This document shows, in pieces, positions 1 through 39,348 of a DNA stretch of 39,348 nt (positions are counted from its first letter, which is position 1; each line of letters opens with the position of its first letter). The translations under genes were made by a program, and so were the position numbers. The DNA lies in NCBI GenBank assembly GCA_022750415.1, contig JAKIVT010000007.1:1-39348 (forward strand), written 5' to 3'. Source of the stretch: Thermoplasmata archaeon (GTDB lineage: Archaea; Thermoplasmatota; Thermoplasmata; Lutacidiplasmatales; UBA184). Under the pieces are notes generated by a model. The model was not told the origin of the DNA and ran no database searches. It saw only the letters and a program-made list of their open reading frames with translations.

Positions 1-1301
1 CCGGCGGAGAGGGGCGGCGGGTTGCCGGTCCACGCGTACGAGTACGGCGGGGTCCCTCCGACGGGGACCGCCGAGAAGGTCACGTTCTGGAGGAGGTCCA
101 CTCCCTCCCGACTCGGCGCGACGAAGACCCCCACGATCGACTCGCTCCCGAAGATCCAGGTGTCGTTGGAGAGGCTCGCGTTCGTGGGGGACCCGCCGAA
201 CAGCAGGACGAACGACGTCGCCGGCGTGGGTCCCGCGTAGGCAACGAGCGCAGCACCCGTCCGGGGATTCGGCGCTGGTCCCGAGGTGGCAATGGGCCCG
301 CTCCAATTCCCATTCGCGTACGTCCACGCATCGTTCAGGGGGGCCGCACCCGAGGGCTGGCCGCCGAACAGCACGAGGGAAGCTTCGGACGCATCGAACG
401 CGATGGCGGATCCGGTTCGGGCCGCCGGAGCGCTCGCGGTGGTCGGGAGTACCCAGTGACCGCTGCGGAACCACCACGTGTCCCCCAGGAGTCCCCCCGT
501 CGCAGCGATGGTCCCGTCCCCCCCGAAGAGCACGACGGCGTCGTCCGAGTAGTCGAACCCGAACGACGCCGAGTATCGCTGACTCGGCGTCCCATTCGCC
601 CCCGCCGCCGAGGCGGTGCGGTTGACCCACGTTCCGTTGGCGTAGGCCCAGGTGTCGTTCAGAACCCCCAGGTAGTTCCGGCCGCCGAAGAGCACGGCCA
701 TTTGGTCCGCCACATCCCACGCGAACGACGCGTCGTACCGCTTGGGGGGCGACGCCGCTGTCGTGGGTGTGATGTTGGTCCAGTTCCCGTTGGAGAACGT
801 CCACGTGTCCGCGAGAGGGCCGGAAGCGCCGTGACCGCCGAAGAGAACGACCTGGTTGCTCACGGCGTCGTACGCCATCGCCGCTGCCGCTCGCGCGGGG
901 GGACTTGCGTTCGTCCGGGTATGGGTCCAACTCCCGTTGGCGTAGGTCCACGTTCCGGAGAGCGGCTGCGAGCCCGCCCCGAATCCTCCGAACAACACGA
1001 CCTCTTCGTCCCGGACGTCGAACGCCATGGCCGCCCCGGACCGGGCTGGGGGAGCGTTGGCCACGTCGGCCGTGAGATTCTGCCAGGTCGGAGCTCGAAG
1101 GGCCGCGGGGGAAACGGCGGAATGCGGGTCCGCGCGACTCGAGCTCGTGGACGAACTGTGGATCCGAGGGGTCCCCACCGAAGTCGCCGGCGGGAGGGCC
1201 GGGATGGCCAGGAGGGCCACCGTCACGACGACCAGAAATCGACCCCAAGGGAGCGAAGCGAGGCGCGGAGCTCCCTCGCCCCAACGGCGTCTCGGAACCA
1301 T
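1..1301 (-). CDS. Secreted Kelch-repeat surface protein with PKD/Ig-like region at the window edge (partial; 3' end off left edge)
   Basis: Not in the ORF track because no stop lies in the window. Minus-strand ATG at 1301 reads MVPRRRWGEGAPRLASLPWGRFLVVVTVALLAIPALPPATS (signal peptide), then ARSGAAMAFDVRDEEVVLFGGFGAGSQPLSGTWTYANGSWT and LNDTWAYANGT Kelch blades; the left edge reads GGTPPYSYAWTGNPPPLSA (PKD-like). Confidence 0.88.
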   Translation of the reverse strand, partial: MVPRRRWGEGAPRLASLPWGRFLVVVTVALLAIPALPPATSVGTPRIHSSSTSSSRADPHSAVSPAALRAPTWQNLTADVANAPPARSGAAMAFDVRDEEVVLFGGFGAGSQPLSGTWTYANGSWTHTRTNASPPARAAAAMAYDAVSNQVVLFGGHGASGPLADTWTFSNGNWTNITPTTAASPPKRYDASFAWDVADQMAVLFGGRNYLGVLNDTWAYANGTWVNRTASAAGANGTPSQRYSASFGFDYSDDAVVLFGGDGTIAATGGLLGDTWWFRSGHWVLPTTASAPAARTGSAIAFDASEASLVLFGGQPSGAAPLNDAWTYANGNWSGPIATSGPAPNPRTGAALVAYAGPTPATSFVLLFGGSPTNASLSNDTWIFGSESIVGVFVAPSREGVDLLQNVTFSAVPVGGTPPYSYAWTGNPPPLSA

Positions 1302-1602
1302 GGCTCCGCCGTTCCCAGAGCGAAGGGCAGGTAAGCCTGTCCATCGTCCCGACGTGACGGGGGAATTCGGACCCGGGGCCGTGGAATGGCGCAGCCGCCC
1401 AGTCGGTCCCCGCCGTGGGACCCCGCTCTCCTCGAGCCCCACCTCAAGCCCCCGTCCCAGGTTTCCCGCGGATTCTGGGCATCGGAGAAGTGCCCACCGG
1501 GCGACTGCTGCGCCCGAGTTCACACCGGGTCGCCGGGGGTGAGACACCGCCCGATTTCGACCGCCTTCTGAAGTACCGGGACCCGGTCGGCGCCGTGCAG
1601 GG

Positions 1603-2951: not shown

Positions 2952-2990
2952 TCAATTTAGTTCCCTCGCCGCTGGGAACGGCTTCCCTCC

Positions 2991-5378
2991 ATGATGCTCT
3001 TCCGTCGGCACGCTCCGCTCACCGTTGGAGTCCTCGCGGTCCTCGGTGTGCTGCTGCTGACCGGGTTGGTCTCCGCCGCGGCCCCTGGGTCGCAGGCGAC
3101 GGGCCGGACGGCGTTTCCGGTCTCTTCTGGGTCCGCCGGGTCGTCGCACTCGGCCCCCACCACCGTCCTCGCCGATGACACCACCGTCCTCGGGGGAGCC
3201 TCCGGCGTCGACCCGATCGGCGACCTCGTCCAACCGGGGATCGTCGGCCCGACGTTCCGGTCGTACACCATCGAGGTCCGGGTGAGCGCTCCGCAATCCG
3301 GCCAATCCGTGTTGCTGGAGACCAGTCCCATCGTCGACTGGTCGTCGCCTTCGCAGCTTCCCGGGGGGCCCGACGCCCTCCCCCCGCTCGCCGAGTGGTC
3401 CTGGTCGGTGAGTTCCTCCGGCAGGTCCGACTCGGCGAACTGGACGGTGAACCCCGCCACCCAGGCACTCGAGAGCACGGTGGCGTGGCAGAACGCCACG
3501 TACATGGTGAACGGCACCTTCGTCGGTACGGAAACCGTCACCGTGTCCCCCGGCACCCGCGACGGGACGACGCCCACCTCCCTCTCGGTCTCCCTCAATG
3601 GGTGGTCGCCGGGGGCGGGCAAGTCCTCGAGCACCACCAACCTCACGGCCGCGGCGGCCGCGCTCCACCCGACGATCGTCCGGTTCGGAATGACGTCGAG
3701 CGGGATCGCGGCGAGCTGGAACACGACCAGCGGAACTCCGACGTTCGACTTCGCCCACTTCGATTCGGTCGTCCGCTTCATCTCCTCCCTCGGCGCCGTC
3801 CCGCTCCTCAGCCTACCGGCCGGCACCTGGGGGGACGGCAACGTCCTGCCGTCGGGGATGCCCCTCAACCCCGGCACCCCGATTCCCTTCAACGGGACCA
3901 ACGGCTACTTCGCCGACCCGACGGCCTTCTCCGCGTACGTCGAGGCATTGGCCGTCCACATCGCGGCGACCGGCGAGTCGGTGCCCTATTGGGAGGTCGG
4001 GAACGAGGTCCCCCTGCTCAACGCGTCGGAGGTGGCCACGTTCGCCGACCTGATCACGGTGGCCGCGACGACGATCCACGCCTTGCTTCCGAACGCCCGG
4101 GTCAGCGCGGACACCATCACGAGCAAGCCGTACCTTGGGGAATTCGCGAATACCACGTCGGGAGTGGGGTTCCTGTCGTTCCACTACTACGCCTCGAACT
4201 CCTTGTGCAGCTCGAACGGGTCGTACTGCGCGCCGGGAACGTTCGGGCTCGGAGACACCGACGCCGACCTGTTGGCCCCGTCGTCCAACATTTCCCACGC
4301 TCCCTTCCTTGCCCCGCCCGCGGCCCAGGCGGAATGGTTTGCGTTGACGGGTACGCACCTTCCGATCCTCGACACCGAGTCGAACTTGAATGCGGCCGGC
4401 GGGAACGGTGGATCCGGCGGCACCGGCAGCGACCCGCGCATCCAGACCCTGTTCGGCGCGGCGTGGCTCGGGTCGACGTTGATCGACGCGTCGCGGGCGA
4501 ACGTGTCGAGCCTCACGTACTTCCGGCTGACCAATCCGAACACCCCGAACAGCACGCAGACCGCGCCTTACGGGGGATTCGGATTCGGACTGACCACGCT
4601 GAACCTGAGCGGGCAGTTCGTGGAGTTCGCCCCGTACTGGGCGTCCTACCTGTGGGCGACGGAGGTCCAATCCGCCGGTTCCGGAGTGGCCGTCAACGTC
4701 ACGGGTGCCACCGACGTCGTCCCCTACGCGGTCCGCGACGGGACGCACGTCGCCGTGGTCCTCGTCAACCGGATGGCGACGGCGATCAATACGACCGTCG
4801 AGTTCCCCAACGCGAGCGAGTGGACCCCGACCGCGCTCACGGTCCTCGATTCCCGCGGCTACACGGAGACGTACAACGCGGCCACGAACTCGGCGAGCGT
4901 CGAGCGCTCGGGCGTCGTTTCGCTCGCCCCCCCGATGGCCGGCGGCACGGTGGCGATCGACGGGTACGGGATGGCGCTCGTGACCGGTCGGTACGCCCCG
5001 GCGAACGATTCCGACGGGTCGGGAAACTCCACGAACAGCACCAACTCGACCAACTCGACGTCCCCCGGAAACCAGACCGGGCCGAACTCGACCGAACCGA
5101 ACACGACGGGGGGACCCAACGCGCCGCTTCGCCCCCCGGCGACCGGGAACCACGGCCGCTCTCCGGCCGGTTCCGCGCCCACCGATTCCGCCCTCTCCGG
5201 CGCGGCCGTGGCGGTCCCGAAAGCCGTGCTCGGTCTGACTGGAAACCGGTGGGCCGCCCTCGGCATCTTGGGCGTGACCGTCGGCATCGCCCTCGCTGCG
5301 TGGGGGTCGTCCGCGCCCCTCCCGCCGGTCCAGCACGCGCGGGCCGTCCCGCGTCGGCGCGGGCCCTCCCGTCACTAG
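2991..5378 (+). CDS. Membrane-anchored extracellular glycoside hydrolase-like protein (GH-A clan/TIM-barrel-like)
   Basis: Signal peptide; YWEVGNEVP (acid/base Glu motif) and LPILDTESNLN (candidate nucleophile); NST-rich stalk and C-terminal TM helix with basic tail. Paralog of 6252..8474. Confidence 0.8.
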   Translation: MMLFRRHAPLTVGVLAVLGVLLLTGLVSAAAPGSQATGRTAFPVSSGSAGSSHSAPTTVLADDTTVLGGASGVDPIGDLVQPGIVGPTFRSYTIEVRVSAPQSGQSVLLETSPIVDWSSPSQLPGGPDALPPLAEWSWSVSSSGRSDSANWTVNPATQALESTVAWQNATYMVNGTFVGTETVTVSPGTRDGTTPTSLSVSLNGWSPGAGKSSSTTNLTAAAAALHPTIVRFGMTSSGIAASWNTTSGTPTFDFAHFDSVVRFISSLGAVPLLSLPAGTWGDGNVLPSGMPLNPGTPIPFNGTNGYFADPTAFSAYVEALAVHIAATGESVPYWEVGNEVPLLNASEVATFADLITVAATTIHALLPNARVSADTITSKPYLGEFANTTSGVGFLSFHYYASNSLCSSNGSYCAPGTFGLGDTDADLLAPSSNISHAPFLAPPAAQAEWFALTGTHLPILDTESNLNAAGGNGGSGGTGSDPRIQTLFGAAWLGSTLIDASRANVSSLTYFRLTNPNTPNSTQTAPYGGFGFGLTTLNLSGQFVEFAPYWASYLWATEVQSAGSGVAVNVTGATDVVPYAVRDGTHVAVVLVNRMATAINTTVEFPNASEWTPTALTVLDSRGYTETYNAATNSASVERSGVVSLAPPMAGGTVAIDGYGMALVTGRYAPANDSDGSGNSTNSTNSTNSTSPGNQTGPNSTEPNTTGGPNAPLRPPATGNHGRSPAGSAPTDSALSGAAVAVPKAVLGLTGNRWAALGILGVTVGIALAAWGSSAPLPPVQHARAVPRRRGPSRH

Positions 5379-5577: not shown

Positions 5578-6111
5578 GTGAAACTCGTCCGGCGCCAGAA
5601 GATCGGCGTGTTCTTCGCCGTCGCGATCGCGGCCCTCGTGGGCCTCGGGTGGCTGGCGTCGCTCTCGACCTCCACGACCCCGCCCCCTTCGATCGAGATC
5701 GTGTCGACCACGAATCTCGAGGTGAGCAGCGGACTGTCCAATGCCGTCGTCTTTCCGTTCCAGCTGGCCCCGGACCAGCAGCCCGGGGAGGAAGGGACTC
5801 CGACGATCGGCTCCGCGTCCGCCTCGATCAACCTCACCGTGTCCGGATGTGCCAGCGTGGACGCCGGCGGCTGCCCGGGCGTTTCGGTGGCGATCTACAC
5901 CGGCGACGCGGTCGGCGGTGCCGGCTCCGGTGGGAACGTCTCGCCGGTCTGGTGCGCGGGGATGACCGGGGCCTCGTGCGGGACCGTCATGCAAGGAAAC
6001 TATCAGGTCGACCTGACCGCGTTCGCCGGGCAGGCGCTCGACCTCGTACTGTGGACGCCCTCCGGAACGGAGTGGGTCGACATCTCCTCCTCCGGGTCCT
6101 GGGGCGGATAG
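5578..6111 (+). CDS. Small membrane-anchored/secreted protein of unknown function
   Basis: 177-aa ORF, GTG start, MKLVRRQKIGVFFAVAIAALVGLGWLASL N-terminal TM/signal, four Cys in a Gly-rich ectodomain. Confidence 0.7.
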   Translation: MKLVRRQKIGVFFAVAIAALVGLGWLASLSTSTTPPPSIEIVSTTNLEVSSGLSNAVVFPFQLAPDQQPGEEGTPTIGSASASINLTVSGCASVDAGGCPGVSVAIYTGDAVGGAGSGGNVSPVWCAGMTGASCGTVMQGNYQVDLTAFAGQALDLVLWTPSGTEWVDISSSGSWGG

Positions 6112-6251: not shown

Positions 6252-8474
6252 CTACGAAGCGAGACTCGGTCGGCTGGCGGCCACCACGCGCCCCTCGGTC
6301 CACGGGGTTCGGGCGGCCTCGAGGAACGCCGGGGCCGCGACACCGGCGGGGGCCGTCGCGTCCGAACCGTGGGTGGTGTTGGCCGCGGAGCAGAGGGCGG
6401 AGGGGTCGAACAGCGCCCCAAGCGCCGGGACGCTTCGGGCGGGCGCGTGGGTCCCGCTCGGCACCTCCGTGAGGACGGCGACGCCGTACCCCTGGAGGAT
6501 GAAGGTCACGGGGTTGCTGGTCCGGACCCGCGAGAGGACACCGGATTTGCCCAGGACTTCCTGGTGCGTCGCGACGTTCCAGGTCTCCGAATAGGAGCGG
6601 TGGTCGAGCAGCGTGAGGTTGCTCGGGGAGAGCGAAGCTCCGGGGAAGGAGACCGTGAACTTGACGGTCGCGTTGACGTGGTTCACGGCGACGACCGACA
6701 CCCCCGCATGGGTCCGGTACGCCTGCGCCTCCGCGAGAGCGGCGACGGAGCCGGTGGTGATCAACGCGGGGCTTTGCGAGGGAACCGCCTTCCCCCACAT
6801 CGTGGCGGCCCAGTACGGGGCATACAAGATCGCCGGGCCGCTCGCGTTCTCCCGGATCATCTCGAATCCCCATCCCCCGGCCGCCGAGGTCGGCGTGACG
6901 TTGAGCGTCTCCGGGCCCGCGAGCGTGTAGTACACAATCCCCTTCACACCCTCTTGGGTCCCGTCGATGTACAGGCCCGCGAGCCACTGGGCTCCGAACA
7001 GAGTTTCGATCCGGGGGTCGGTCCCCGAGGCGGTGGCGAGCGTCCCGCCCTCGTGATTGAGGCCGGATTCCGAGTCGATCACCGGGAGCCAGTGGCCCGT
7101 GGCATTGTACCAGTCCGACCGTGCGGAGAGAGGAGGCTCCCACGCCAGCATCGTGCCGAACTCGGTGGAACGGTCGACGAGGTTCGGGTCCGGGACCCCG
7201 TTGTTGCCGCCGGTCGGGGGACAGTAGACCCCGTTGTTGATGCACATCCCGGCGACGGCGTACATGTGGAAGGAGAGGAACCCGGTCGTGGGCGCGCCCT
7301 TGGCGAATTGGGGGAGGTACTTCGGGTCCATCATCACGTCGGTCCCGACCAGCGCACCCGGGAGGTACCGGTGGATCGCCGTGAGCGCGGTGTTGAACAC
7401 CTTGATGAACGACGCGACCTCGGAAACGTTGACGCGGGGGACTTCGTTCCCTATGTTCCAGTAGACCACGCGGGCCTTCGTGCTCTGGACGTGCTGGGCG
7501 AGGGCGCCGACGTACTTCGCGTAGGCGACGGTCGTCGGGAAGTAGCCGGTCGTCCCGTAGAACGTGACCGGCATGGTCGGGTCGAGCGGCATGCCGACCG
7601 GGAGCGTGTTGCCGTCCCCCCAACTTCCGGCGGGAAGGCTCAGCATGATGTTGGCCCCCATCGACTCCGAAAAGTTCACCATGCGGTCGAAACCGACCCA
7701 CTTGTAGCTCACCGAATGGTTCGTCACGTTCCACGTGATCGAGACGCCGATGCTCGTGATCCCGATCCGGACGATCCCCGGGTGGGTGGCGGCCGCGAGG
7801 CCGGGAAACGCCGGGTCGTTCGCGGTGCCGGACGAGGGGGAGAAGATCGAGTTGGCGACGAAGCCGCTGGCCGGGGCCGATTGTCCGCCCACCAACGTCG
7901 GCAGGACCGAGATCGAAAGGACCGGGGTGGTCCGGCCGGTGATGACGAACTGGCCGGACTGCCAAGGGACCGACCGGTAGAGCTGCCCGGTCCCGGCGTT
8001 GGCCGTCCAGTTGGCCGTGTCGTTTTGGCCCTGCGCCAGGATCGTAAACGACCACGAGGCAAACGGCGGCAGCGCGTCTTGCCCGCCGGGGAGTTGACCG
8101 GGCTGGCCCAGGACCGTCAAGGGCGACGTCACGAGCGTCACGGACACCAGGGGGACCACGAGGGCCGTGGTCACGCTCAGTTGGTACGTTCGTTGGTAGC
8201 CGGTGCTGCGCCCGGCCAGGGCCGCGTCGGTGAGCGTGCTCAGCACGTGACCGAGCTTCAGGTATTGGAGGGTCGAGTCGTCCGTCAGTTTCAGGACCCC
8301 GACCTGGAAGGACTGGGCGCTGGGAGCCGACAAACTTCCGCGGGGCGAGACCGTCCCGGAAGCGGTGACCGAAGGGACCAGGAGTACAACAAGCACCAGA
8401 GCCAGGAGGATGCCTGCCCCGAGCGGCATTTGGAGCCGGCGGGAGCGCGGGAGCGTACCCATCCAGCTCGTCAC
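6252..8474 (-). CDS. Secreted glycoside hydrolase-like protein (GH-A clan-like), paralog of 2991..5378
   Basis: 740-aa ORF (GTG 8474; alternative ATG 8462); signal peptide; YWNIGNEVPRVNVSEV and LPVIDSESGLN motifs shared with the upstream paralog; no C-terminal TM. Confidence 0.8.
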   Translation of the reverse strand: MTSWMGTLPRSRRLQMPLGAGILLALVLVVLLVPSVTASGTVSPRGSLSAPSAQSFQVGVLKLTDDSTLQYLKLGHVLSTLTDAALAGRSTGYQRTYQLSVTTALVVPLVSVTLVTSPLTVLGQPGQLPGGQDALPPFASWSFTILAQGQNDTANWTANAGTGQLYRSVPWQSGQFVITGRTTPVLSISVLPTLVGGQSAPASGFVANSIFSPSSGTANDPAFPGLAAATHPGIVRIGITSIGVSITWNVTNHSVSYKWVGFDRMVNFSESMGANIMLSLPAGSWGDGNTLPVGMPLDPTMPVTFYGTTGYFPTTVAYAKYVGALAQHVQSTKARVVYWNIGNEVPRVNVSEVASFIKVFNTALTAIHRYLPGALVGTDVMMDPKYLPQFAKGAPTTGFLSFHMYAVAGMCINNGVYCPPTGGNNGVPDPNLVDRSTEFGTMLAWEPPLSARSDWYNATGHWLPVIDSESGLNHEGGTLATASGTDPRIETLFGAQWLAGLYIDGTQEGVKGIVYYTLAGPETLNVTPTSAAGGWGFEMIRENASGPAILYAPYWAATMWGKAVPSQSPALITTGSVAALAEAQAYRTHAGVSVVAVNHVNATVKFTVSFPGASLSPSNLTLLDHRSYSETWNVATHQEVLGKSGVLSRVRTSNPVTFILQGYGVAVLTEVPSGTHAPARSVPALGALFDPSALCSAANTTHGSDATAPAGVAAPAFLEAARTPWTEGRVVAASRPSLAS

Positions 8475-8785: not shown

Positions 8786-11356
8786 TCAGCCGCTCGGAGC
8801 GGGCAAGAGCAGGACCGTCCACGTTCCTTCGACTCCGAGGACCCGGGCTCCGTACTCCCCCTGGAGATAGGTGGCCACCCAGAGGATCGCGCTGGGGTGG
8901 CTGAAGATGAGTTGGGACTCGTTGGTCGCGAGGACGAACCGGACCCCCCACTGCGCCCAGATCGTGGGGGCGTCCAGCGCATTCGGGAGACCGCTGACGA
9001 GGTTCTGGGCCCTCGGGGTGGAAAAGGCGAGGGTAAAATTCACCTCGGGGACGCCGCCCGGTCCGGCGGTGACGTTCAGCGGGACGCGGGCCACCGTTCG
9101 GATCGCCGGGCGGTTGAGCGACTGGGGTCGGCCGACGGAGCTCGTGGGAGTCACGTTCACAAACGTTCGGAGGTTGGCCGAGGTCGAGGCGGGGGTGAGC
9201 ACCACCTCCCCGAGCGTCGTTCCGGTTTGGAAGTTCGTGGCCCCGACCCCGAACGCCGGCCCGGTCATGTTGCCCCGCACCGCGAGGATCGCCCACCCAG
9301 GGTCCGCCGCGAAGACGAGGGAGAACCGGGCTTGGGGGGACACGGAAGGGATCGTGACCGTTACGTTGAGGTCGAACCCGGTCTCGACGTAGAGCATCGA
9401 CATCGTCGTGACGGCCGGGCTCGTCGCCCCGGCCACCGTGGAGGAGGGCGCGAAGATCGTGGGGGAGGCCCGCACGGATTCCGTCTGGTTGGCGCTCCCA
9501 TTGGAGACCGTGACGTTGAAGTTGTCCGCGGCGAGGGAGGCCACCGACAGGAAGACCCCGTTCGCCGACGCCTCGTAGTCCGGCGTCTCGTTGTCGAGGG
9601 TGCCGTTCGTTCCCGCGATCGTGGCGGCCACAAGGCTGTTGGTGACCGCATCGCGCGCCACCATCGCGAAGTAGGTGACCTCCTCGTCGGTCAGGTGACC
9701 CGGGTCGAAGGTGAATCGGGGGGCGACGAACGGCGTGTAGGCCTCGCGGTCGAGAAGGGCCCGGGTCCACTTGGCGGCCCCTCCCGGCGCGAAGACGTTC
9801 CCCGAAACCCCGGAGTGCTGAATGTCGCCGAGGGCGGCCAAGAACGTCGAGTCGTGGAACAGCGAGGAGTTCTGTTGTTCATCCGCGGCGAGGCTCGGTT
9901 CGGTCACGGCCCCGGCGCCGATGATCAAGAGGACAACCGCGAGGGCGAAGGCCGCGGTGCCGAGCGCGGTCCACCCGGGGGGTACTCCGACCCAAGTCGG
10001 GGCGGCCGGGCGCGGCGGAGTGCGAGCCGCTCCCCCGCTCCTTCGCCGGCCGGCCGCCGACGGCGGGCCGACCGGACGCGTGGGGAGGACACGCGTCAGG
10101 AAGGCCGGCGTCCAGTGCAGGAAGGCGTCGAAGACCAGGCCGAGACCGAGACCGAGCGGGACGACGAGGTAGAGCGGAAACCGGACGTAGTCGGTGACGA
10201 TCGAGAGTTTCCAGCCGACGATCGCGCCGCCGATCACCGCGAGCAACATGGTGAGGACCGTCACCATCCCCAACGTGAGCCGCTCGGGGGCGAGGAGTCG
10301 AACTCCCACGAGAACCAGGGCGAGGAAGAGGGCGGAGACCAGGGAGATGAGCTCGGCGTTGGGCAACGACGGCTTCGTCGACGCGAAGTACGGGTTGAGG
10401 AGAACGTAGTACAGACTGCCGAGCCCATTCCGGACGTACGAGAAGGCGTTCGCCGCGATGAAGTGCGGCTGCGGGACCTTCACGAGGTACGCCAGTCCGT
10501 AGAACCCACCGACGGAGAGGAGGAACACTGCAAAACCGGCAAGCGCCACCGGTCCCCGGTAGAAGCTCCGCGGGATCCGCCGCTGCGAGACCAGGAATCC
10601 GCCGAGAAGGACGAGGGTCACCGTCAGGAGGGTGGCGCTCAGCGGATGGCTGAGGACCGTCGCGGCCGTGGCGACCCAGAACAAGAAGGCGTGGGTCTCG
10701 GACCCGGAGCGGGCGAATCGGACCAAGAACGCGACCGCGAGCCCGAGGAACATCAGGCCCAGCAGGTTCGGGTAGATCCCGGAGAAGTACGCCTGAACGA
10801 GCGTGGGGCTGAATACCACGAACGTTTCGACGGCCAGGGCGACCGACCGGGAGCGCAAGACCGACCGGGCGAGGTAGTACGTGCCGAGCCCGATGCCGAT
10901 CCCGCAAAATGCCACGAACAATCGACCGGCCTGCAGCGGCCCGACCAACCGGAGGAACCCCCCGAGGATCGGGAATACCAACGGCGGGTACTGGCCCGGG
11001 AGCAGCCACGTGGGATACGGAAGGCCCACAAACGCGTACGACCCCGCGATCCATTGCCCCGGGTCCCCCCCCGAAGGGATGGGGTAGACCGCCATCGCGC
11101 GCTCCACGAGATACACCGCGAACAGGGCGATGGCGAGCGCGAGCAGGTACCCGTACACCTCGGTCTTGCCCGGCTCGCGAACGCCGCTCCGATTTGCCGG
11201 GTCCACGTCCCGCGCCGGAAAGTACTCGGCCTCCGTGTGGGCGAAGGCGGCGCGAGCTCGGGCCATCGCCCCCGGCTTGGGTCCCTCCACCGCGTGGTCC
11301 GCTGGGGGGGGCGGCGACGCGACCGGGACCGGGGCGCCGGCGTCGGTCGCCGTCAC
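8786..11356 (-). CDS. Polytopic GT-C-like membrane protein with large C-terminal extracytoplasmic domain
   Basis: Track ORF 8786..11659 is over-extended; N-terminal portion is Arg/Gly/Pro-rich. Start GTG 11356 or ATG 11266. Many TM segments, PIPSGGDPGQW...GLPYPTWLLPGQYPPLVFP loop motif; paralog at 13255..15735. Confidence 0.75.
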   Translation of the reverse strand: MTATDAGAPVPVASPPPPADHAVEGPKPGAMARARAAFAHTEAEYFPARDVDPANRSGVREPGKTEVYGYLLALAIALFAVYLVERAMAVYPIPSGGDPGQWIAGSYAFVGLPYPTWLLPGQYPPLVFPILGGFLRLVGPLQAGRLFVAFCGIGIGLGTYYLARSVLRSRSVALAVETFVVFSPTLVQAYFSGIYPNLLGLMFLGLAVAFLVRFARSGSETHAFLFWVATAATVLSHPLSATLLTVTLVLLGGFLVSQRRIPRSFYRGPVALAGFAVFLLSVGGFYGLAYLVKVPQPHFIAANAFSYVRNGLGSLYYVLLNPYFASTKPSLPNAELISLVSALFLALVLVGVRLLAPERLTLGMVTVLTMLLAVIGGAIVGWKLSIVTDYVRFPLYLVVPLGLGLGLVFDAFLHWTPAFLTRVLPTRPVGPPSAAGRRRSGGAARTPPRPAAPTWVGVPPGWTALGTAAFALAVVLLIIGAGAVTEPSLAADEQQNSSLFHDSTFLAALGDIQHSGVSGNVFAPGGAAKWTRALLDREAYTPFVAPRFTFDPGHLTDEEVTYFAMVARDAVTNSLVAATIAGTNGTLDNETPDYEASANGVFLSVASLAADNFNVTVSNGSANQTESVRASPTIFAPSSTVAGATSPAVTTMSMLYVETGFDLNVTVTIPSVSPQARFSLVFAADPGWAILAVRGNMTGPAFGVGATNFQTGTTLGEVVLTPASTSANLRTFVNVTPTSSVGRPQSLNRPAIRTVARVPLNVTAGPGGVPEVNFTLAFSTPRAQNLVSGLPNALDAPTIWAQWGVRFVLATNESQLIFSHPSAILWVATYLQGEYGARVLGVEGTWTVLLLPAPSG

Positions 11357-24718: not shown

Positions 24719-24751
24719 GAAACCGGGAACGAGGAGAACGCGACGACCACC

Positions 24752-30449: not shown

Positions 30450-32099
30450 CTACGACTCGACCGTGGCGGCTGGCGGACGTCTCCGGCGCCACCACGCGAT
30501 AGCGAATACCAGGGCGATTGCAACGCCGAGACCGGCGAGGAGGTAGCCGTCCTCCGTCGCAAGCCCGGACCCGAGAACGCCATGGTTCGAGGAGGTTCCG
30601 CCGGTCGAGGAGGGGGTGACGGTGACGGTCACGTGGGCGCCCGAGGATTCTCCTTGAGCGTCGGTGACGGTCACCTCGATGTGGAACGCGCCGACTTGTT
30701 CGGGAACGCACGCCAACGCGGAGACATTCTGACTCGCGCAAGGGGGTGGAAGTCCCGAGTAGGAGAACTCCAGCGGGCCACCTCCTGCCCCCGAAACTTC
30801 GGTGGTGATCTCGAACGAGTTTCCGACCCGAACGGAGTCGGGGGTGGCGGTGAACGAGACAATCACCGGCGGGGGTGGTGGGAAAGGAACTGCGGAAAAC
30901 GCAATCCAAACCGTGGTCGGAGCGCCGGGCGTCGGCATGGCAAAGGAGCCCGACGTTCGGTCGGCGCGGTACCCCGACGGGACTTGCAGAGTGTAGTTTC
31001 CTCGAACCCCGGCGACGACGTCGTACTCCACCGACGTGTTCGCGACGTGGCTCGGTGTCAGGTTTTGGCCGTCGGATCCGTTCACGGCCGTGACGCCCCA
31101 GGGGACCGACCCCGGCAAGCCGGTTTCATTGAACCAAAGGGGAAAGACTGGAGGAGGCAAGTCGGATCGGAAGGAGACCGGTTGCGTGATCCCGGCACCG
31201 GAGATGCCCAGTTGGCCGCTCGACGGGCTCGCGACATACCCGATCGGCGAGGTCACTTCGAACGGGTACCCGGAGCCGTTGGGCAACGAGAAGCCGATCG
31301 AACGATTCTCGGACACATTCGTCCACGTCTCGATGGAGACGGACCACGACGTGTTGGGAGGAAGTCCGCTCTCGTTGAAATCGAGCAGGTAGCGCGGGTC
31401 CGTGGTATCGACCGAGAACTGGAGGTTGGAGGTGGAGCCCTTACCGGCGACCGAGACGTTGCCGCTCGGCGGACTCGAAACGTAGCCGGGGGGCGGCATG
31501 ACAACGTACGAGTAGGCGGTCCCGTTCGGCCGGAGGAACGACACGGTGGTGTTCTGGGACGAGTGCGTGAACCCATCGAGCGTCACCGACCACGCCCCAC
31601 CGGGTGGTCCCCCGGTCTCATTGAACACGAGGGGGAATGTCGGAACGAAGGACATCGGCACCGAGAAGTTCGCGCCTTGGATGGTTAGGGTTCCCTCGTT
31701 GTTGGTGCCCTGATACGTCTGGTTTCCGAACGTGAATCCGGAATAGTAGTCCGTCCCATTCGGTAGGCAGATCGTTCCATTGTCCGAGTACACATCGATT
31801 TGGAAATTCCAGCTACTGTTCAGAATCTGGAGCCCCCAAATCGTCCCGGTCGGCAGTCCGGTCTCGGTGAAATTGATCGCGTAGTAGACGCTCGTGTACG
31901 GCACCGGGTAGGGCGGTGGGCACCAATCCGTGGTGAGGGCCGGAGCGGTCGAGTCGATCCCGAGAGCGGGCTGGGCGGAATTCGCCGGGGCTCCGACCAC
32001 AACCCCGGACGCGACGAGCGTCAAAACGACGACCGCACACGCGACTCGGAGGGCGCCTCGTGGGACGTGCGAGGCGGGGTGGCCCGTGTGAAGGCTCAC
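30450..32099 (-). CDS. Membrane-anchored surface protein with FNE(T/S)GLP repeats and an Ig-like domain
   Basis: GTG start, signal peptide, four repeats (NFTETGLP, FNETGGPP, FNESGLPP, FNETGLPG), one Cys-pair Ig-like domain, C-terminal TM GYLLAGLGVAIALVFAIAWWRRRR. Confidence 0.85.
   Translation of the reverse strand: MSLHTGHPASHVPRGALRVACAVVVLTLVASGVVVGAPANSAQPALGIDSTAPALTTDWCPPPYPVPYTSVYYAINFTETGLPTGTIWGLQILNSSWNFQIDVYSDNGTICLPNGTDYYSGFTFGNQTYQGTNNEGTLTIQGANFSVPMSFVPTFPLVFNETGGPPGGAWSVTLDGFTHSSQNTTVSFLRPNGTAYSYVVMPPPGYVSSPPSGNVSVAGKGSTSNLQFSVDTTDPRYLLDFNESGLPPNTSWSVSIETWTNVSENRSIGFSLPNGSGYPFEVTSPIGYVASPSSGQLGISGAGITQPVSFRSDLPPPVFPLWFNETGLPGSVPWGVTAVNGSDGQNLTPSHVANTSVEYDVVAGVRGNYTLQVPSGYRADRTSGSFAMPTPGAPTTVWIAFSAVPFPPPPPVIVSFTATPDSVRVGNSFEITTEVSGAGGGPLEFSYSGLPPPCASQNVSALACVPEQVGAFHIEVTVTDAQGESSGAHVTVTVTPSSTGGTSSNHGVLGSGLATEDGYLLAGLGVAIALVFAIAWWRRRRPPAATVES
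30885..31886 (-). repeat. Tandem FNE(T/S)GLP-type protein repeats (four copies; boundaries approximate)
   Basis: F(N/T)E(T/S)GxPxxxxW recurrences separated by GY.(A/S)(S/D)..SG blocks. Confidence 0.7.
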
Positions 32100-32301: not shown

Positions 32302-32838
32302 ATGAAAGAACGGGGATTCTGCATCTGGCTGACGGGACTGCCGAGCGCCGGAAAGACGACGATCGCAAAGGAGCTCACGCCGCGGCTCCAGGCGATGGGT
32401 CGGTACACCGAACTGCTGGACGGGGACGAGGTCCGCAAGGGGATCAGTTCCGACCTCGGATTCGACCGGAAGGCGCGCGAGATGCACGCCGGCCGGGTCA
32501 CGTACGTGGCCAAGGTCCTCGCCCGCAACGGGGTCATCCCCGTCGTCGCCCTGATCAGCCCCTACCGTTCCTCCCGCGCCAAGGCCCGCAGCGAGATCGG
32601 CAGCTTCGTCGAGGTGTACGTCGACACCCCGCTCGACCTCTGCGAACAGCGGGACGTCAAGGGACTCTACAAGAAGGCCCGTGCCGGCGAGATCAAGGAG
32701 ATGACCGGCGTGGACGACCCGTACGAACCGCCCGAGCACCCGGAGATCCTGGTGGACACCCGCTCTTCGACGCCGGCCCAATCGGCGGAGCGGATCATCG
32801 GGGAGCTCCGGCGGCTCGGTTGGCTCCCCGCCGCGTAG
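32302..32838 (+). CDS. cysC: Adenylylsulfate kinase
   Basis: IWLTGLPSAGKTTIAKEL P-loop, LDGDEVRKGISSDLGF, ALISPYRSSRAKAR, FVEVYVDTPLDLCEQRDVKGLYKKARAGEIKEMTGVDDPYE: classic CysC motifs. Confidence 0.95.
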   Translation: MKERGFCIWLTGLPSAGKTTIAKELTPRLQAMGRYTELLDGDEVRKGISSDLGFDRKAREMHAGRVTYVAKVLARNGVIPVVALISPYRSSRAKARSEIGSFVEVYVDTPLDLCEQRDVKGLYKKARAGEIKEMTGVDDPYEPPEHPEILVDTRSSTPAQSAERIIGELRRLGWLPAA

Positions 32839-32873: not shown

Positions 32874-34037
32874 TCAGCCCTGTGTGACGTTGGGCTGACG
32901 GAGGATCTCGGCGACTTCCGGGCGGAGGATCTCGCCCGGGAGCGGCTGGCCCTCGGCGAGCGCCTTGCGGATTCTCGTCTGGCTCGTGTCCACGCGGTCG
33001 GACGCCGGATGGGGGCACGTCTTCATCGTCGCCATCCACCCGCACTTGCGGCACAGCCAGGCTTCGTCGTAGCAGAGCGCCTGGATGCCGATGTCGTACT
33101 CCTCGAAGATCCGTTGGCAGGCGTACGGGTCGTAGTACTTCCCGACCCCCGCCTGGTCGCGACCGACGATGTAGGACGAGCACCCGAAGTTCTTCCGAAC
33201 GATCGCGAGGAACAACGCCGCCTTGGGGCCGGCGTAGCGCATCGCGATCGAGAACGCCGCCAGATGGACCCGGTTGGCGGGAATGTAATTTTGAACCAGG
33301 GCCCGGTACGCTTGCAGGATGATGTCCGGTCGGTAGTCGCCCGCTTTCAGCCGGCCGACGACCGGGTGGATCAGCAGTGCATCGACGTCCTGGCGCTCGA
33401 GGGTGAGCCGCTGCAGGTACTCGTGGGCGGTGTGCGGCGGGTTACGGCATTGGTAGGCCGAGACGCGCTTCCACCCGTTCTTCTCGAAGAGGGCGCGGGT
33501 CTCCGTCGGGGTCATCTCGTCGGGGCCGGTCGGTAGGTCGAGCCGCCGGACCAGGTCGACCTTGCCCGCGAGCGCGACGTCGCCGGTCGCTTGAATGTCG
33601 GCGACGTTGGGATGTTGGACCTCCGTGGTGCCGTACGTCGACTGCGCCCAGACCTTCCGGTCGGGGGAGAACTTCTCTTCGAGATGCAGGAGGGCGAACA
33701 ACCGACCGGACCCGTCCAGGAGCCCGACCTCATCGCCCGGCGAGAGGGCTCGGATCGTCGCGGCGTTCTCCGGCCCGGGCGGCGTGAGGAGAATCGGCAT
33801 CGACCAGGGAAGGTCGTTCGGCAGGCGGTTCCCGGAGAGCACGCCCTCGAACGTGGCGCGGTTCATGAACCCCTCGAGGGGGCTGTACGCCCCGACCCCG
33901 ATCTTCTCGGCGTCGTAGACATCGTCGATGAACGGGCGGAGCTCCGGGAGGTCGTCGACCTCCGCTTCCCGCCGGGCCCGGTCGGAATCGGAGAGTTCTC
34001 GGCGGATGAGGCGGCCGCCGTGCGGCGGGATCGTCAC
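32874..34037 (-). CDS. sat: Sulfate adenylyltransferase (ATP sulfurylase)
   Basis: YQCRNPPHTAHEYLQR, HPVVGRLKAGDY, VGRDQAGVGKYYDPY, CRKCGWMATMKTCPH. GTG 34037 preferred over track start 34184. Confidence 0.95.
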   Translation of the reverse strand: MTIPPHGGRLIRRELSDSDRARREAEVDDLPELRPFIDDVYDAEKIGVGAYSPLEGFMNRATFEGVLSGNRLPNDLPWSMPILLTPPGPENAATIRALSPGDEVGLLDGSGRLFALLHLEEKFSPDRKVWAQSTYGTTEVQHPNVADIQATGDVALAGKVDLVRRLDLPTGPDEMTPTETRALFEKNGWKRVSAYQCRNPPHTAHEYLQRLTLERQDVDALLIHPVVGRLKAGDYRPDIILQAYRALVQNYIPANRVHLAAFSIAMRYAGPKAALFLAIVRKNFGCSSYIVGRDQAGVGKYYDPYACQRIFEEYDIGIQALCYDEAWLCRKCGWMATMKTCPHPASDRVDTSQTRIRKALAEGQPLPGEILRPEVAEILRQPNVTQG

Positions 34038-34236
34038 AGGACCTCCAGGGTGGGGGGGGGCACCGTTGGGACCGAGAGGAGGGCCGGCCGCCGAAGGATT
34101 CGAGGCATCGGCGTCGCGCTGGGTCGGGCGTTGATACCCTTTGCGGCGGTCCGACCTTTCGTCGCACCGGCCGGTTCTTCCCACCGTCTCCGGCCCAACC
34201 GGACAACCGCCGCCGTTTCTTCTGCCCGCTGGGAAA

Positions 34237-34257: not shown

Positions 34258-36123
34258 CTACTTCGACGGGGGCGGGGGCCAGGCTTTCGGAGGGGGCCGC
34301 GGCGCGGTGACGGCTCGATTTCGGGACCACAGGGCGATGGCGAGCACCACCGCCAGAACCACGACGACCCCGGCCGCGAAGATCCACACCGGGAACTTCG
34401 ACCCCGACGTCGCGGTCGTTGGGCCCGGCGAGGAGCTCCCGCGGAGGACCGTCAGATTCTGGACGGCGCTCGAGGTCGCGTTCGACGCGTCGGTCACGAC
34501 GACCTGGATCGAATAGTTGCCGGGAGCAGTGGGCCAACATGTCATCTGGCTCACGTTCGCCGCCGGGCACCCCGGAGGGAGCTGCGGCCAGGCATACTCC
34601 AGGACCCCAATCCCACCTCGCGTCGAGACCGTAAGGTCCACCGACGAGCCGTTCTTGATGGTCGCCGCGCTTTCGTTCAGCGTCGCGACCAGCCGTCGGT
34701 ACGCGGTCAAGTTGAACTCGGCCATCGCCCGGCTTCCGAGCGAGTCGGTCGTGTTGAGCCAGACCGTGTAGTTCCCCCGCTTCGCGTACACGTGGAGCGG
34801 GTTGGCGCGCGTCGAGATCGCCGAGTCCCCAAAGTTCCAATGGTAGGAGAAGGGCCCGAGGCCGCCAAACGTCGAGGAAGTGAAGTTGAAGCTCAGCGGC
34901 GAGCCGCCCGGCGTCGGGTTCGCGGTGCCGTTCACCGAGTACGGGAACACGAAGGCCGCGGTCGAGTTGTACCACACGACCGCGTGGTCCCCGCTGTGTC
35001 CCCCAAAGACGACGACGGTGCCGAGGTCCGGGTCGAAGACCATGGCGCCCGAGTCGGCGGGCAACAACCTCGTAGCGACGGTCACGGGGTCCCACGATAG
35101 GTTCGCGACGCTGGTTCCTTCGAGAACCCACGTGTCGTTGAGCTCGAGCGTGCTCAGATTCCCGGATTCGTTCTGGCCGCCTTCCAGGACCGCCGCCCCC
35201 ACCGCCGGGTCGAACGCCATCGGCGCTCCGTCCCGGGGCGAGGGCGCCGTGGTCAGCGACACCGGCGTCCACTTCCCTGCCCGGAAGGTCCACGTGTCGT
35301 TGTAGGCGAGGTAGCTCGGCTGGGTCGTGTACCCTCCGAAGACGACGATGGCCCCTACGGCCGGGTCGTAGATCTCGGACGGCTCCGACCGCCCGAGGGG
35401 CTGCACGCTCGGGAACAGCTCGGTCCACCGTCCGTGGAGGAACTTCCACGTGTCGTCGATCGTGGTGAAGTTCGCATTCACGCCGAGGCTGGTGCCGTTG
35501 TGGCCGCTGAACAGGAGGAGGTACCCGTCGGCCGCATCGAAGGCGAACCCCCCGACCCTCCGGGCGGGCGGCGAGTGGGGTACGGTGAGCTGGGACCACG
35601 CGGTCCCGTTGAACACCCACGTGTCGTTCTCGTACGCATTCAGGCTCGAACCGCCGAACAGGACGACGTACCCGTCCACCGGGTCGAAGGCGGCCATCGC
35701 CCCGCGTCGCCCCGTCGGGTGGACCGCGAGGTTGAGTTGGTGCCACGTGCCGTTCTGAAACAACCACGTGTCATTGTCGAGCGCCGAAAAGTTCCCCCGA
35801 CCGCCGAACAAGACCCCGACCTGCTTCCCGCCGAACGTGGCCCAGGTGAACGTTCCCTCTCCGCGGGGCGGCGGGGCGACCGGTTCCGACAGGGTCGACC
35901 AGCTCCCGGTGGTCAGAGGGTCCGCAGCGGCGAGTCCGGCCTCCGGCAGGAGCAGCGGAGAGGCGACCGGGGCGGCGGCGGACCCGTCCATCGGTCCCGA
36001 CCCGGAGATCCCTACCAACGCAATGGCGATCCAGACCCCGAGGTGGACCACCATGGCAACGCGGTCGCGGGACTTCGGAGGAACCCGCCGCTCCGGAGCA
36101 TGCCCCGATAGGGCACCCCGCAT
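34258..36123 (-). CDS. Membrane-anchored Kelch-repeat protein with PKD and Ig-like domains
   Basis: ATG 36123 with a TATA-like CCATATCGAC (36143-36152) upstream; signal peptide; NDTWLFQNGTW-type blades; PKD motif FSYHWNFGDSAISTRANPLHVYAKRGNYTVWLNTTDS; C-terminal TM. Track start 36615 is over-extended. Confidence 0.85.
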   Translation of the reverse strand: MRGALSGHAPERRVPPKSRDRVAMVVHLGVWIAIALVGISGSGPMDGSAAAPVASPLLLPEAGLAAADPLTTGSWSTLSEPVAPPPRGEGTFTWATFGGKQVGVLFGGRGNFSALDNDTWLFQNGTWHQLNLAVHPTGRRGAMAAFDPVDGYVVLFGGSSLNAYENDTWVFNGTAWSQLTVPHSPPARRVGGFAFDAADGYLLLFSGHNGTSLGVNANFTTIDDTWKFLHGRWTELFPSVQPLGRSEPSEIYDPAVGAIVVFGGYTTQPSYLAYNDTWTFRAGKWTPVSLTTAPSPRDGAPMAFDPAVGAAVLEGGQNESGNLSTLELNDTWVLEGTSVANLSWDPVTVATRLLPADSGAMVFDPDLGTVVVFGGHSGDHAVVWYNSTAAFVFPYSVNGTANPTPGGSPLSFNFTSSTFGGLGPFSYHWNFGDSAISTRANPLHVYAKRGNYTVWLNTTDSLGSRAMAEFNLTAYRRLVATLNESAATIKNGSSVDLTVSTRGGIGVLEYAWPQLPPGCPAANVSQMTCWPTAPGNYSIQVVVTDASNATSSAVQNLTVLRGSSSPGPTTATSGSKFPVWIFAAGVVVVLAVVLAIALWSRNRAVTAPRPPPKAWPPPPSK

Positions 36124-36308: not shown

Positions 36309-37067
36309 CTACGCGGCCGCGTACCGTTCGCGGGAGATCGGGCACGGGGAGGCGGCGAGGCCGAGTCGCCGGGGCTTGGGAAGGGGCTCCCCATCCTCCA
36401 GCCATCGACGGACCTGCTCCGTGACCGGTCCGAAATCCTCGAACGGGTAGTGGGGGATCCCCGACTGTTCGCAGTAGTTCTTGAGCCGGCGGCGCGCGAA
36501 CACGATGTCGGCGACCTCGGCGGCGAACTTGTCGGTGCTCCCGTCGCCGGCGAAGACGGACCGACGTCCGTCGACCGCCTGTTCCCGGACGGTCTGTGCC
36601 TTGCAGATTCCGCACAGCCGGCAGGTGGCGTGGCCGTACGGATGGGAGAGGGCCAGTCCGTCGGGGGGGACCAGCGTGAGGACGTCGGAGTACACCGGGA
36701 GGTCGATGCCCGCGTGCTTCAGGATCGGTGTGATGTAGAAGTCGAGTCCGCCGGAGACGATCGCCGTCGGGACCTTGTGGCGGTGGAGCAGTCGGAGCAG
36801 GTCATCGGCACCGCTCCGGAAGGGGGTGTTCCGGACCGACCATTGGGCCATCTCTTCCATCCGGTCACCGGGGAGCAGGGCGACCTGACGTTCCCACGCT
36901 TCCCGAAGGGTGATCTTCCCCGAATGGAGCTCCTCGTCGATCTCGTGCGCGACCCGCTTCCCGTCCCGAGCGAATTCCTCGACCAGGATGATCGCCACGT
37001 TCGGCTCGACGAGCGTGCCGTCGAAGTCGATCCACATTCGGAGGGCGTTCGCCGCGTCGGTCGTCAT
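36309..37067 (-). CDS. HAD-superfamily phosphatase, MtnX-like
   Basis: MWIDFDGTLVEPN, AIVSGGLDFYITPIL, HATCRLCGICKAQ Cys motif, VFAGDGSTDKFAAEVADIVFARRRL. Confidence 0.82.
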   Translation of the reverse strand: MTTDAANALRMWIDFDGTLVEPNVAIILVEEFARDGKRVAHEIDEELHSGKITLREAWERQVALLPGDRMEEMAQWSVRNTPFRSGADDLLRLLHRHKVPTAIVSGGLDFYITPILKHAGIDLPVYSDVLTLVPPDGLALSHPYGHATCRLCGICKAQTVREQAVDGRRSVFAGDGSTDKFAAEVADIVFARRRLKNYCEQSGIPHYPFEDFGPVTEQVRRWLEDGEPLPKPRRLGLAASPCPISRERYAAA

Positions 37068-37147: not shown

Positions 37148-37201
37148 GGACGCGCCCGGTACCGGACGCCCCGAGAGGTCGGGCGGGACGGGGCGACCGG
37201 G

Positions 37202-39348
37202 TCAGAGAACACGGACCGAACGGTTGGATCCTTCCCAGGCGTCGCGACCGGTCCAGTAGAACGTGAACTCGAACACCGTATCGACGGGAACCGGGAACGG
37301 GAGGTCGACGAAGTCGATCCCCAGCCCCGTCCCCGAGGAGGTCGTCTCCTCGGTCTGGGTCCAGTCGTCCATCGTCCAGCGGAGCCGGAACGGTTCGGGG
37401 GCCATCACCCGGAGCCGCTCGCTGCGGTCGACGAAACCGGGTTGGCGGTTCGGCTTCCAGACCTCCCACGCGGTTCGCGTCGGGTCGCGATTTCGGTAGC
37501 GGGCCTCGACGGTCGGGATCCGGTCGAACACCTCTCCGTCTTCGGCGGACCGGAGCAACTTCAGGAACTCCGCGTGGGCCCAGGCGAGCGGCATCGCGGC
37601 CCCGGTCGGTTTCCCGGCCACGAGGTGTTGGCTGGCCAGCTCCGGGGCATCCCAAACCTGTTCGGAGAGGAGTCCGGTCGACGAGGCGAATCGGGCCATG
37701 GCGTCGAGGAAGGGCGCCACTGGACGGCCGGCGGCCAACTCGTAGTGGCCGCGTTCCCCCGTCAGAAGGGGCCAGGCCCGGCCGGTGCCCCACTCCTCGA
37801 ACGGCCCCCCGTCGTCCCGCTGCCCGTACCCGTCGTGGTTGTACCGGTGCCAGCAGGGACCCTCGGGGGTATCGACCCGGAGGACCCGGTCGACGAGCTT
37901 CACCGATTCAACGATGAGCGGGTCGTTGGCCCGGCGGACCCCGTGCCGGACGAGCTCGAGGAAACCGGCGTCCACCACCTCTTTGGCCGGAAACGTCTGC
38001 GGGGCTCCGGGCGGTTGGTTCGCGAGGGTGAGAACCCCGTTCTCGGGGTTCTCGTCCGGCATCGTCTCCCCGACGGGAACCGGATGGATTCGGATGTAAT
38101 GCTGGGGTATCGATGCGTCGAGGGTGCCGTGGCGCGTGACGGTCCAGCGCTCGAGGTGACCCTCGAGGAAATCGGCGTAGGCCAGGAGGAAGTCGGAGGT
38201 TCCGCGGTCCCCCCGTTCCGCCGCGAACTCGGCGGCGACGACGCACGCGGCGATCGTGACGGCGAGCGTCGAGGGGGAGTACCCCGATGCCTCCTCCCAC
38301 CGCTCCTGTTGGGTGGCCGGTCCGTTCTCCACGAGGTAGCGCGCGGCGGCGAGGACCATCGGGTAGGGGTCGAACGCGGCCAACGCATCCTCCCGTCGAA
38401 GCTTGTCCGCAAGGAGGATCGGGAAGGCGACCTCATCGAGCTGGAGGCCGCCCCAGTACGCCGTCCCGTCGACCCAGAAGTTCTGCGGAAATCCCCCGTC
38501 GGGCAGTTGGCTCGCGGCGAGGTAGATGAGGGTCCGAAGCGGGGTCCGGTGGTCCCCGGAAGCGAGGAGTCCGCCCGCGATCTGCACCAAGTCCCGGGTC
38601 CAGACGAGATGGTAGCCGCCGCGGTCCTGGTCCCCCTTCGCGTACCCCCACGGGATCGACAACGACGCGACGAAGGCGCCGGGGAACGTCTTGTCCTCGT
38701 GGGCGAGGAGCGTGCAATAGCTGGTCTGCTGGAGGTCGCGGAGCCTCGCCGACCGATGGGCGAAGGGCCGCAGGTGCGCCGCCGCCCGTCCCCACTGCTT
38801 CCCAAATCGCACCCGATGGAGCTCGTAGGGGGTGCTGAGGGACTGGAGGAGCGCCGCGAGCGCGTGCTGGCGTCCCCGGCCGAAGGCGAGCCCGAGCGTG
38901 AATTCCGAGCGTCCCGCCAGGTTGAGCGCCCCGGTGAGGGCCACGTTGCCGTTGGTCGCCCGGTCGAACTCCCACGTCATCCCGAGATGCTCGTGGACGT
39001 CGGTCCAGCCGTCGCTGGCGCCGACGAACCCGCAGGAGAGCTTGGAGAACGGCGCGGTGGCGCCGAGCGCGAGCCACGTGCCGTTCCGCTCTGCGAGCAA
39101 CACCTCCCGGCCCGCCATCCGGCCGACGTAGGCGTTGTTCCCCCAACCGCTCCCGTCCAGATGCGGGGCGCCCAGCACGTAGATCGAGAGGTCGCTCGCC
39201 GCCACCGATCTCGGCTCCACCCGAACGTGCTGCAGCAGGACCGGCAGATGGGGGTCGGCGATGACCTCCTTGTGGAGCGCGTACCGACCCTCGGGGTCGG
39301 TGTTGACGATCCGGTACCCGAGCGCCGGTCCCACCGTCCGCTCGGTGA
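37202..39348 (-). CDS. Glycoside hydrolase family 15 (glucoamylase-like), 5' end truncated by window edge
   Basis: Frame stays open to the right edge (TERTVGPALGYRIVNTDPEGRY). GGYHLVWTRDLVQIAGGLLASGD, QLPDGGFPQNFWVDGTAYW, QVWD, and LAWAHAEFLKLL motifs. Confidence 0.9.
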   Translation of the reverse strand, partial: TERTVGPALGYRIVNTDPEGRYALHKEVIADPHLPVLLQHVRVEPRSVAASDLSIYVLGAPHLDGSGWGNNAYVGRMAGREVLLAERNGTWLALGATAPFSKLSCGFVGASDGWTDVHEHLGMTWEFDRATNGNVALTGALNLAGRSEFTLGLAFGRGRQHALAALLQSLSTPYELHRVRFGKQWGRAAAHLRPFAHRSARLRDLQQTSYCTLLAHEDKTFPGAFVASLSIPWGYAKGDQDRGGYHLVWTRDLVQIAGGLLASGDHRTPLRTLIYLAASQLPDGGFPQNFWVDGTAYWGGLQLDEVAFPILLADKLRREDALAAFDPYPMVLAAARYLVENGPATQQERWEEASGYSPSTLAVTIAACVVAAEFAAERGDRGTSDFLLAYADFLEGHLERWTVTRHGTLDASIPQHYIRIHPVPVGETMPDENPENGVLTLANQPPGAPQTFPAKEVVDAGFLELVRHGVRRANDPLIVESVKLVDRVLRVDTPEGPCWHRYNHDGYGQRDDGGPFEEWGTGRAWPLLTGERGHYELAAGRPVAPFLDAMARFASSTGLLSEQVWDAPELASQHLVAGKPTGAAMPLAWAHAEFLKLLRSAEDGEVFDRIPTVEARYRNRDPTRTAWEVWKPNRQPGFVDRSERLRVMAPEPFRLRWTMDDWTQTEETTSSGTGLGIDFVDLPFPVPVDTVFEFTFYWTGRDAWEGSNRSVRVL

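Follow-up and report, generated by a model that had tools for sequence, protein, structure and literature searches.

Glycan assembly and sulfate activation in archaea are each represented by described gene clusters. The haloarchaeal Agl sets for N-glycosylation combine an AglJ-type family 2 glycosyltransferase (GT2) with a flippase, a GT-C enzyme and the oligosaccharyltransferase AglB. Sulfate activation is known from Pyrococcus yayanosii, in which PYCH_17530-17560 encode ATP sulfurylase (sat), a DHH-family 3'-phosphoadenosine 5'-phosphate (pAp) phosphatase, a type I phosphodiesterase speculated to remove pyrophosphate, and adenosine 5'-phosphosulfate (APS) kinase (cysC) (PMC8268124). For Thermococcus onnurineus, PMC4463584, citing Lee et al. 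(2009), lists TON_1704-1707 as APS kinase, pyrophosphatase, PAP phosphatase and ATP sulfurylase. The stretch analysed here (the window) is the contig JAKIVT010000007.1 of a Thermoplasmata metagenome-assembled genome (MAG; GCA_022750415.1), and it is read, on balance, as a glycan-assembly island of the Lutacidiplasmatales with an embedded sulfate-activation module. The island is a variant of these known clusters. It has in common with the haloarchaeal sets a GT2 nearest to the AglJ models, lipid-linked assembly, a flippase and an STT3-type gene in the genome, and differs from them in that the oligosaccharyltransferase lies outside the window cluster, two GT-C proteins are of unassigned family, and alkaline phosphatase (AP)-superfamily enzymes and sat/cysC are interleaved.

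The window comprises the entire contig C187 (39,348 b), one of the 219 contigs of a 2.0-Mb MAG with 90% completeness, and the island is therefore truncated at both ends. Among named genomes, this one (G000) comes closest to Thermoplasmata MAG AcS1-3 and to Candidatus Lutacidiplasma silvani, which places it in the soil order Lutacidiplasmatales; the text describing the order never mentions glycan, S-layer or glycosyl terms (PMC9287336). The sister genome, a MAG 84% complete, is labelled G010, and other G and L numbers denote further genomes and loci.

Profile searches recovered the families that a first-pass annotation, made from the sequence alone, had recognised in the window, namely repeat-rich surface proteins, GT2, GT4, a flippase, a phosphohexomutase, four AP-superfamily enzymes (AP1-AP4), sat with cysC, and a family 15 glycoside hydrolase (GH15). 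The assembly genes follow one another on the forward strand (+), starting with the GT2 (24713-26119; PF00535), related to the dolichyl-phosphate hexose transferase AglJ, which scored 144 bits against the AglJ model TIGR04182 (cut-off 325) and 87 bits against NF041391, both below cut-off. It is followed by a PMM/PGM-type phosphohexomutase with four PGM_PMM domains, all above cut-off (26207-27598), a MOP-family lipid-linked glycan flippase with 11 transmembrane (TM) segments (27627-29255; PF01943, 84 bits), and a GT4 glycosyltransferase (29255-30415; PF00534, E 3e-32). The GT-C-like pair, proposed in the same annotation, consists of GTCa (8786-11308, reverse strand, -), a membrane glycosyltransferase with an extracellular C-terminal beta domain, and GTCb (13255-15735, +), also a membrane glycosyltransferase, which is 39-40% identical to GTCa. 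In sequence searches the two scored 24.3 and 12.8 bits, under the Pfam cut-off of 26.4, but the predicted fold, from a model of moderate confidence (pLDDT 67), matches STT3/PglB, ArnT and Emb (E 1e-7 to 1e-5) as well as DPY19 (E 7e-4). A D-P-G/D-T-G motif after TM1, its aspartate being D83, is invariant in the GT-C proteins, and the modelled proteins are predicted to have a multi-TM GT-C fold whose first outer loop bears an acidic motif.

This neighbourhood is conserved among relatives. In G010, about 35 kb is collinear and the whole window order is kept minus one PKD gene, with 65-93% identity for most genes, while the right half retains in Ca. L. silvani the same order, GH15-HAD-sat-cysC-GT4-flippase-PMM-GT2-AP4-AP3-AP2-surface protein-GT-C-AP1. 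Smaller subsets are retained elsewhere: sat-HAD-AP4-GT-C-AP2-AP3 in L097 and L098, sat-AP3-AP2-GT-C-GT2-PMM in L140, AP1-GT4-flippase-PMM-GT2-sat-AP3-AP2 in L139, and AP3-AP2-GT2-PMM-AP1-flippase in L130. AP2 adjoins AP3 and GT-C in many relatives, and GTCb co-locates with AP3/AP4; GT-C loci lay within 15 kb of AP3 or AP4 in 6/12 cases vs 0.24 expected (P 5e-8). Across Lutacidiplasmatales, conserved co-localisation thus extends to a core of GT2, phosphomutase, flippase, GT4, GT-C, AP1-AP3 and sat, to which GH15 and the GH-like pair do not belong. The earlier proposal that all these genes form one system acting on co-encoded surface proteins is therefore supported for the conserved core and its sequon-rich secreted proteins, and not supported for GH15, for the GH-like pair or for a direct action of the AP enzymes on exported proteins; its core is real, its edges were overdrawn and its AP enzymes misassigned.

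The secreted products include three kelch proteins, one InlB-repeat/PKD protein and one with weak PKD similarity. Kelch repeats occur in a secreted protein cut by the contig end (1-1226, -; PF24681, E 9e-35), in a complete secreted one (1603-2811, +; PF24681, E 4e-20; 12 N-x-S/T sequons vs 3.3 shuffled) and, by profile search, in a kelch + PKD surface protein (34258-36120, -; 24 sequons vs 4.9). The largest surface protein carries InlB-type and PKD repeats and a C-terminal TM (15794-19996, +; PF18998, PF00801; 37 sequons vs 12.7) and holds the same position in G010 and Ca. L. silvani; the weak PKD protein, also with a C-terminal TM (30450-32099, -; 21 sequons vs 5.3), has no counterpart here in G010. 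Taken together, the seven secreted window proteins contain 143 sequons, compared with 44.1+-5.8 after composition-preserving shuffling, and none of 1000 shuffles reached 143; the reversed pattern occurs 60 times, and total Asn is 234. Their G010 homologues show 137 sequons vs 40.7, the GT-C C-terminal domains 20 vs 6.8, and the cytosolic window proteins 17 vs 9.6. This enrichment makes N-glycosylation of the island's secreted proteins very likely as judged from sequence, and N-glycosylation is probably a feature of secreted proteins in general. No oligosaccharyltransferase was found in the window cluster, and the only STT3-like gene of the genome lies on contig C219 (G000:C219:3465-4223), with homologues in G010, G018, G025 and G029. 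It forms part of a very long open frame; matches were obtained in five other genomes, and in four of these the frame measures ~2,230-2,270 aa, whereas the usual AglB is far shorter.

The sulfate-activation genes are cysC (32302-32838, +; TIGR00455, 208 bits vs cut-off 139) and sat (32874-34046, -; PF01747, PF14306; NF003166, 408 vs 387), to which AP4 (23095-24492, -; PF01663 above cut-off), a probable pyrophosphatase with a Thr nucleophile, is joined by its distribution. A scan of 84,980 genomes placed AP4 relatives at more than 570 sites, and among the best 32 loci outside the order, 28 carried at least one of sat and cysC in the same orientation and no more than 3 kb away (both genes in 23), and in four a DHH gene separates sat from AP4. 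These loci span Nitrososphaeria, Bathyarchaeota, Asgard archaea, Methanomethylicota, Aminicenantes, Acidobacteriota and others, and the four-gene order of Pyrococcus and Thermococcus recurs in Asgard and Methanomethylicota. AP4, previously counted as a surface-glycan enzyme, thus belongs to the sulfate-activation operon sat-(pAp phosphatase)-AP-cysC. Within the window AP4 and sat/cysC are 8-10 kb apart, whereas AP4 and cysC are direct neighbours in G003, G014 and G020. By analogy with the Pyrococcus and Thermococcus clusters (TON_1705), the most likely role of AP4 is to drive the ATP sulfurylase reaction forward through removal of pyrophosphate.

Compared with those clusters, with which the window shares sat, cysC and a PF01663-type enzyme, the three genes here span 11 kb inside a glycan island, a Ser-nucleophile paralogue (AP3) is added, and a haloacid dehalogenase (HAD) gene stands near sat, with no DHH pAp phosphatase in the genus members covered. 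No DHH-type match was obtained in 25 genus genomes including the window's, and the enzyme is present in G042, G043, G045 and G051. The HAD-IB phosphatase (36309-37067, -; TIGR01488, 69 vs 45 bits), missing from the first-pass list, is two genes from sat in the window; it is likewise near sat in G010 and directly adjoins it in G018, G025, L097, L098 and L128. It is a candidate pAp phosphatase and a candidate replacement for the DHH enzyme. Two side observations concern the same module. In L138, L142, L143, L144, L146, L148 and L150, all of them Asgard or Nitrososphaeria loci, the sat-AP-cysC operon has a second divergent PF01663-type gene within a few kb, usually on the upstream side of sat, so that two AP enzymes per sulfate-activation cluster are common. 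Beside a short-chain dehydrogenase/reductase gene and AP4 (and cysC), many genus members carry a ComA-like protein (phosphosulfolactate synthase, PF02679) fused to a MarR/TrmB-like winged helix (L078:1115-2026, L080:3845-4756 and similar), suggesting a sulfonate link or a regulator role.

AP1 (11739-13244, +) and AP2 (20055-21536, +), both with PF00884 above cut-off, belong to the phosphonate monoester hydrolase/sulfatase family, and the best solved relatives of AP1 in the PDB are such hydrolases and sulfatases. Both retain the D-C, SDHG and D-x-H-E motifs. A role as formylglycine sulfatases was rejected as the C/S-x-P-S-R motif is absent: the nucleophile is Thr (W-T-V-P-A-H in AP1, W-T-V-P-S-H in AP2), Thr replacing the formylglycine Cys/Ser and His the Arg, and, unlike those sulfatases, neither protein has a signal peptide. 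Indeed, AP1-AP4 all lack a signal sequence and together carry only 9 sequons in 1944 residues (0.46 per 100, vs 2.9 per 100 in the secreted set); on these grounds they look cytosolic, which would leave no direct action on exported proteins such as had been suggested. AP3 (21621-23078, -; PF01663 above cut-off) is a paralogue of AP4 in which Ser occupies the nucleophile position. Throughout the AP3/AP4 family, all six metal ligands (D, D, H, D, H, H) are present in 96-97/97 sequences, and a quick tree of the order's sequences separates an AP4 clade (42 rows, all Thr) from an AP3 clade (13 rows, 12 Ser), the ligands being kept in both. AP3 occurs in 12/46 order loci, with AP2 or GT-C nearby in 11/12 of these vs 1/34 without AP3, an association whose P value is only indicative since the loci are related and many contigs short. 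From the clade split and this association, AP3 appears to have arisen by duplication and to have been recruited into the glycan block.

A working scheme can be proposed on this basis. The phosphohexomutase would supply sugar precursors to the GT2, of AglJ/dolichyl-phosphate-hexose type, and to the GT4, both cytosolic; these would build a lipid-linked glycan, which the MOP flippase would bring to the outside, where the GT-C pair would extend it or transfer sugar at the outer face. The STT3-type enzyme coded elsewhere would then place the glycan on the sequon-rich kelch, PKD and GH-like surface proteins. In parallel, ATP sulfurylase and APS kinase would form 3'-phosphoadenosine 5'-phosphosulfate (PAPS), with AP4 removing the pyrophosphate that would hold back ATP sulfurylase, and the HAD enzyme may clear pAp. 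PAPS would most likely serve glycan sulfation before flipping, by a yet unrecognised enzyme, and the probable task of AP1-AP3 is phosphoryl hydrolysis or transfer, with intermediates in the cytosol or on the lipid carrier as substrates. Gene content, conserved neighbourhood, sequon counts and active-site residues are observed; we infer the order of the steps, sulfation, the AP1-AP3 substrates and the HAD role.

Several points weigh against a glycan island with embedded sulfate activation. Many genus members have no GT-C match at the threshold used, hence the island is not universal, and its transcription units lie on both strands. The likeness of AP4 to TON_1705 and PYCH_17550 is drawn from the composition of the clusters. 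Neither G000 nor G010 (90% and 84% complete, respectively) yielded a PF00685 or PF13469 sulfotransferase, other sulfotransferase families not having been searched, and in some genus members a PAPS reductase adjoins sat, so that sat/cysC serves assimilation there. A search of the window and neighbouring contigs for sulfotransferase P-loop motifs returned only the cysC P-loop. The uncharacterised c9 proteins were considered as sulfotransferases and set aside, as they look secreted and in some cases membrane-anchored.

These points bear on an alternative that we consider possible, if doubtful, in which sat, AP4 and cysC are a general sulfate-assimilation module that simply lies beside glycan genes and PAPS goes to reduction, with no surface sulfation. 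It is favoured by G005, G008 and G019, where sat (and cysC) has an unmistakable cysH as neighbour, and by the separate contigs that carry sat/cysC and AP4 in several genus members, e.g. G018. Against it, the window's genome has a single weak PF01507 match to PAPS reductase (29.5 bits; cut-off 22.5, clear members ~150), a 334-aa frame whose type is widespread among genus members; moreover, three genomes have the module inside the glycan block, and in other phyla it is found close to genes for nucleotide sugars and flippases. In favour of sulfation, a PF13469 sulfotransferase is encoded a few kb from sat/cysC in G018, G024 and G028 and on the same contig in G022 and G033. In G051 the order is sat-DHH-sulfotransferase-cysC-transporter-AP, and, as in the window, sulfate activation and a PF01663 enzyme stand near a GT4, here also with a UDP-sugar dehydrogenase; that cluster differs in its recognisable sulfotransferase and DHH pAp phosphatase, and its AP is only ~27% identical to AP4. 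Since the sulfate-activation genes are embedded in a glycan block, sulfation is the more likely use of PAPS in the window's genome.

It is improbable that the locus is a patchwork hotspot in which unrelated glycan, sulfate-activation, alpha-glucan and surface-protein operons have piled up with no common function. The use of both strands, the separable GH pair and GH15, the surface gene absent in G010, and the reshuffled gene order in G022, G025 and G030 would fit such a history; however, the same gene subset recurs in the distinct lineages L130, L131, L132, L139 and L140, the GT-C/AP3-AP4 enrichment is far above chance, and AP3 tracks AP2/GT-C, with the caution stated for related loci.

Two further proposals look to the AP enzymes or the island for the PAPS consumer. 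One holds that PAPS is made without a canonical sulfotransferase, as in Pyrococcus, and is consumed by an unrecognised island enzyme, possibly AP3, representing a new class of sulfuryl transferase on lipid-linked glycans; it is very unlikely, and if it were true, AP3, a duplicate of AP4 moved to the GT-C/flippase block, would found that class. That AP3, AP2 or AP1 is outright the missing PAPS-using sulfotransferase is likewise very unlikely, for although PAPS genes are present without a canonical sulfotransferase in this genome, several distant loci have a second AP gene close to their sat operon and AP3 has exchanged Thr for Ser with all metal ligands in place, relatives such as G051 have a normal sulfotransferase next to cysC, and PMC4463584 gives the Thermococcus relative as a pyrophosphatase. 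To our knowledge, PAPS-dependent transfer by the AP superfamily is without precedent, which also counts against this proposal.

At the edges of the glycan-assembly island, the cytosolic GH15, glucodextranase/glucoamylase-like (37202-39346, -; PF00723, PF09137), sits in several relatives with a second GH15, a GH57 and a GT4, and its complete homologues begin without a signal peptide; it belongs to a separate intracellular alpha-glucan block and is removed from the island. A tRNA-Gln called by ARAGORN at 37703-37799, inside the GH15 gene and with no Rfam tRNA match, was taken as false and is likely spurious. The two proteins described as extracellular and GH-like, GHa (2991-5378, +; one C-terminal TM) and its paralogue GHb (6252-8474, -; 68-70% identical in G010), are indeed secreted, and 39% identical; both keep an N-E and a D-x-E-S motif, N-E and E-S being invariant in four sequences. 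Their GH assignment is tentative, with no Pfam family and a low-confidence model of GHa (pLDDT 42) that matches GH51/GH30/GH79/GH44 and points to clan GH-A, too weak for naming a specific family. Their homologues in Ca. L. silvani lie on another contig, away from the core, and the pair is tied to the island only loosely, contrary to its earlier inclusion. Between them, a small secreted or membrane-anchored protein (5578-6111, +), with no Pfam match and absent from the first-pass annotation, holds the same position in G010.

Beyond the left end, the island appears to continue on C149, another contig of this genome, where a piece 98% identical to the truncated kelch gene is found. It encodes a pair of GT-C proteins, an AP1-like enzyme, surface proteins and a secreted phosphoesterase. 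The phosphoesterase (L067:9469-10497), a homologue of a PF04185 protein of G010, is encoded beside the AP1-like gene and has a signal-like N-terminus, unlike AP1-AP4. A second related cluster (G000:C143:49299-56705; L065) contains ATP sulfurylase, an HxlR-type regulator, AP3-like, AP2-like and GT-C genes and is preceded by a 1516-aa PAS-rich histidine kinase; near 500 kb of G025:C11 the same kinase-sat-AP2-GT-C order is found without the AP3-like gene.

The tempting view of AP-superfamily genes here as secreted sulfatases is thereby corrected. The analysis points to a gap, the consumer of PAPS, and to a paralogue pair, AP4 with Thr and AP3 with Ser, on which it may be tested, and it would connect the assembly of surface glycans, in a soil lineage not yet cultured, with an archaeal operon for sulfate activation that is widespread but has received little study.

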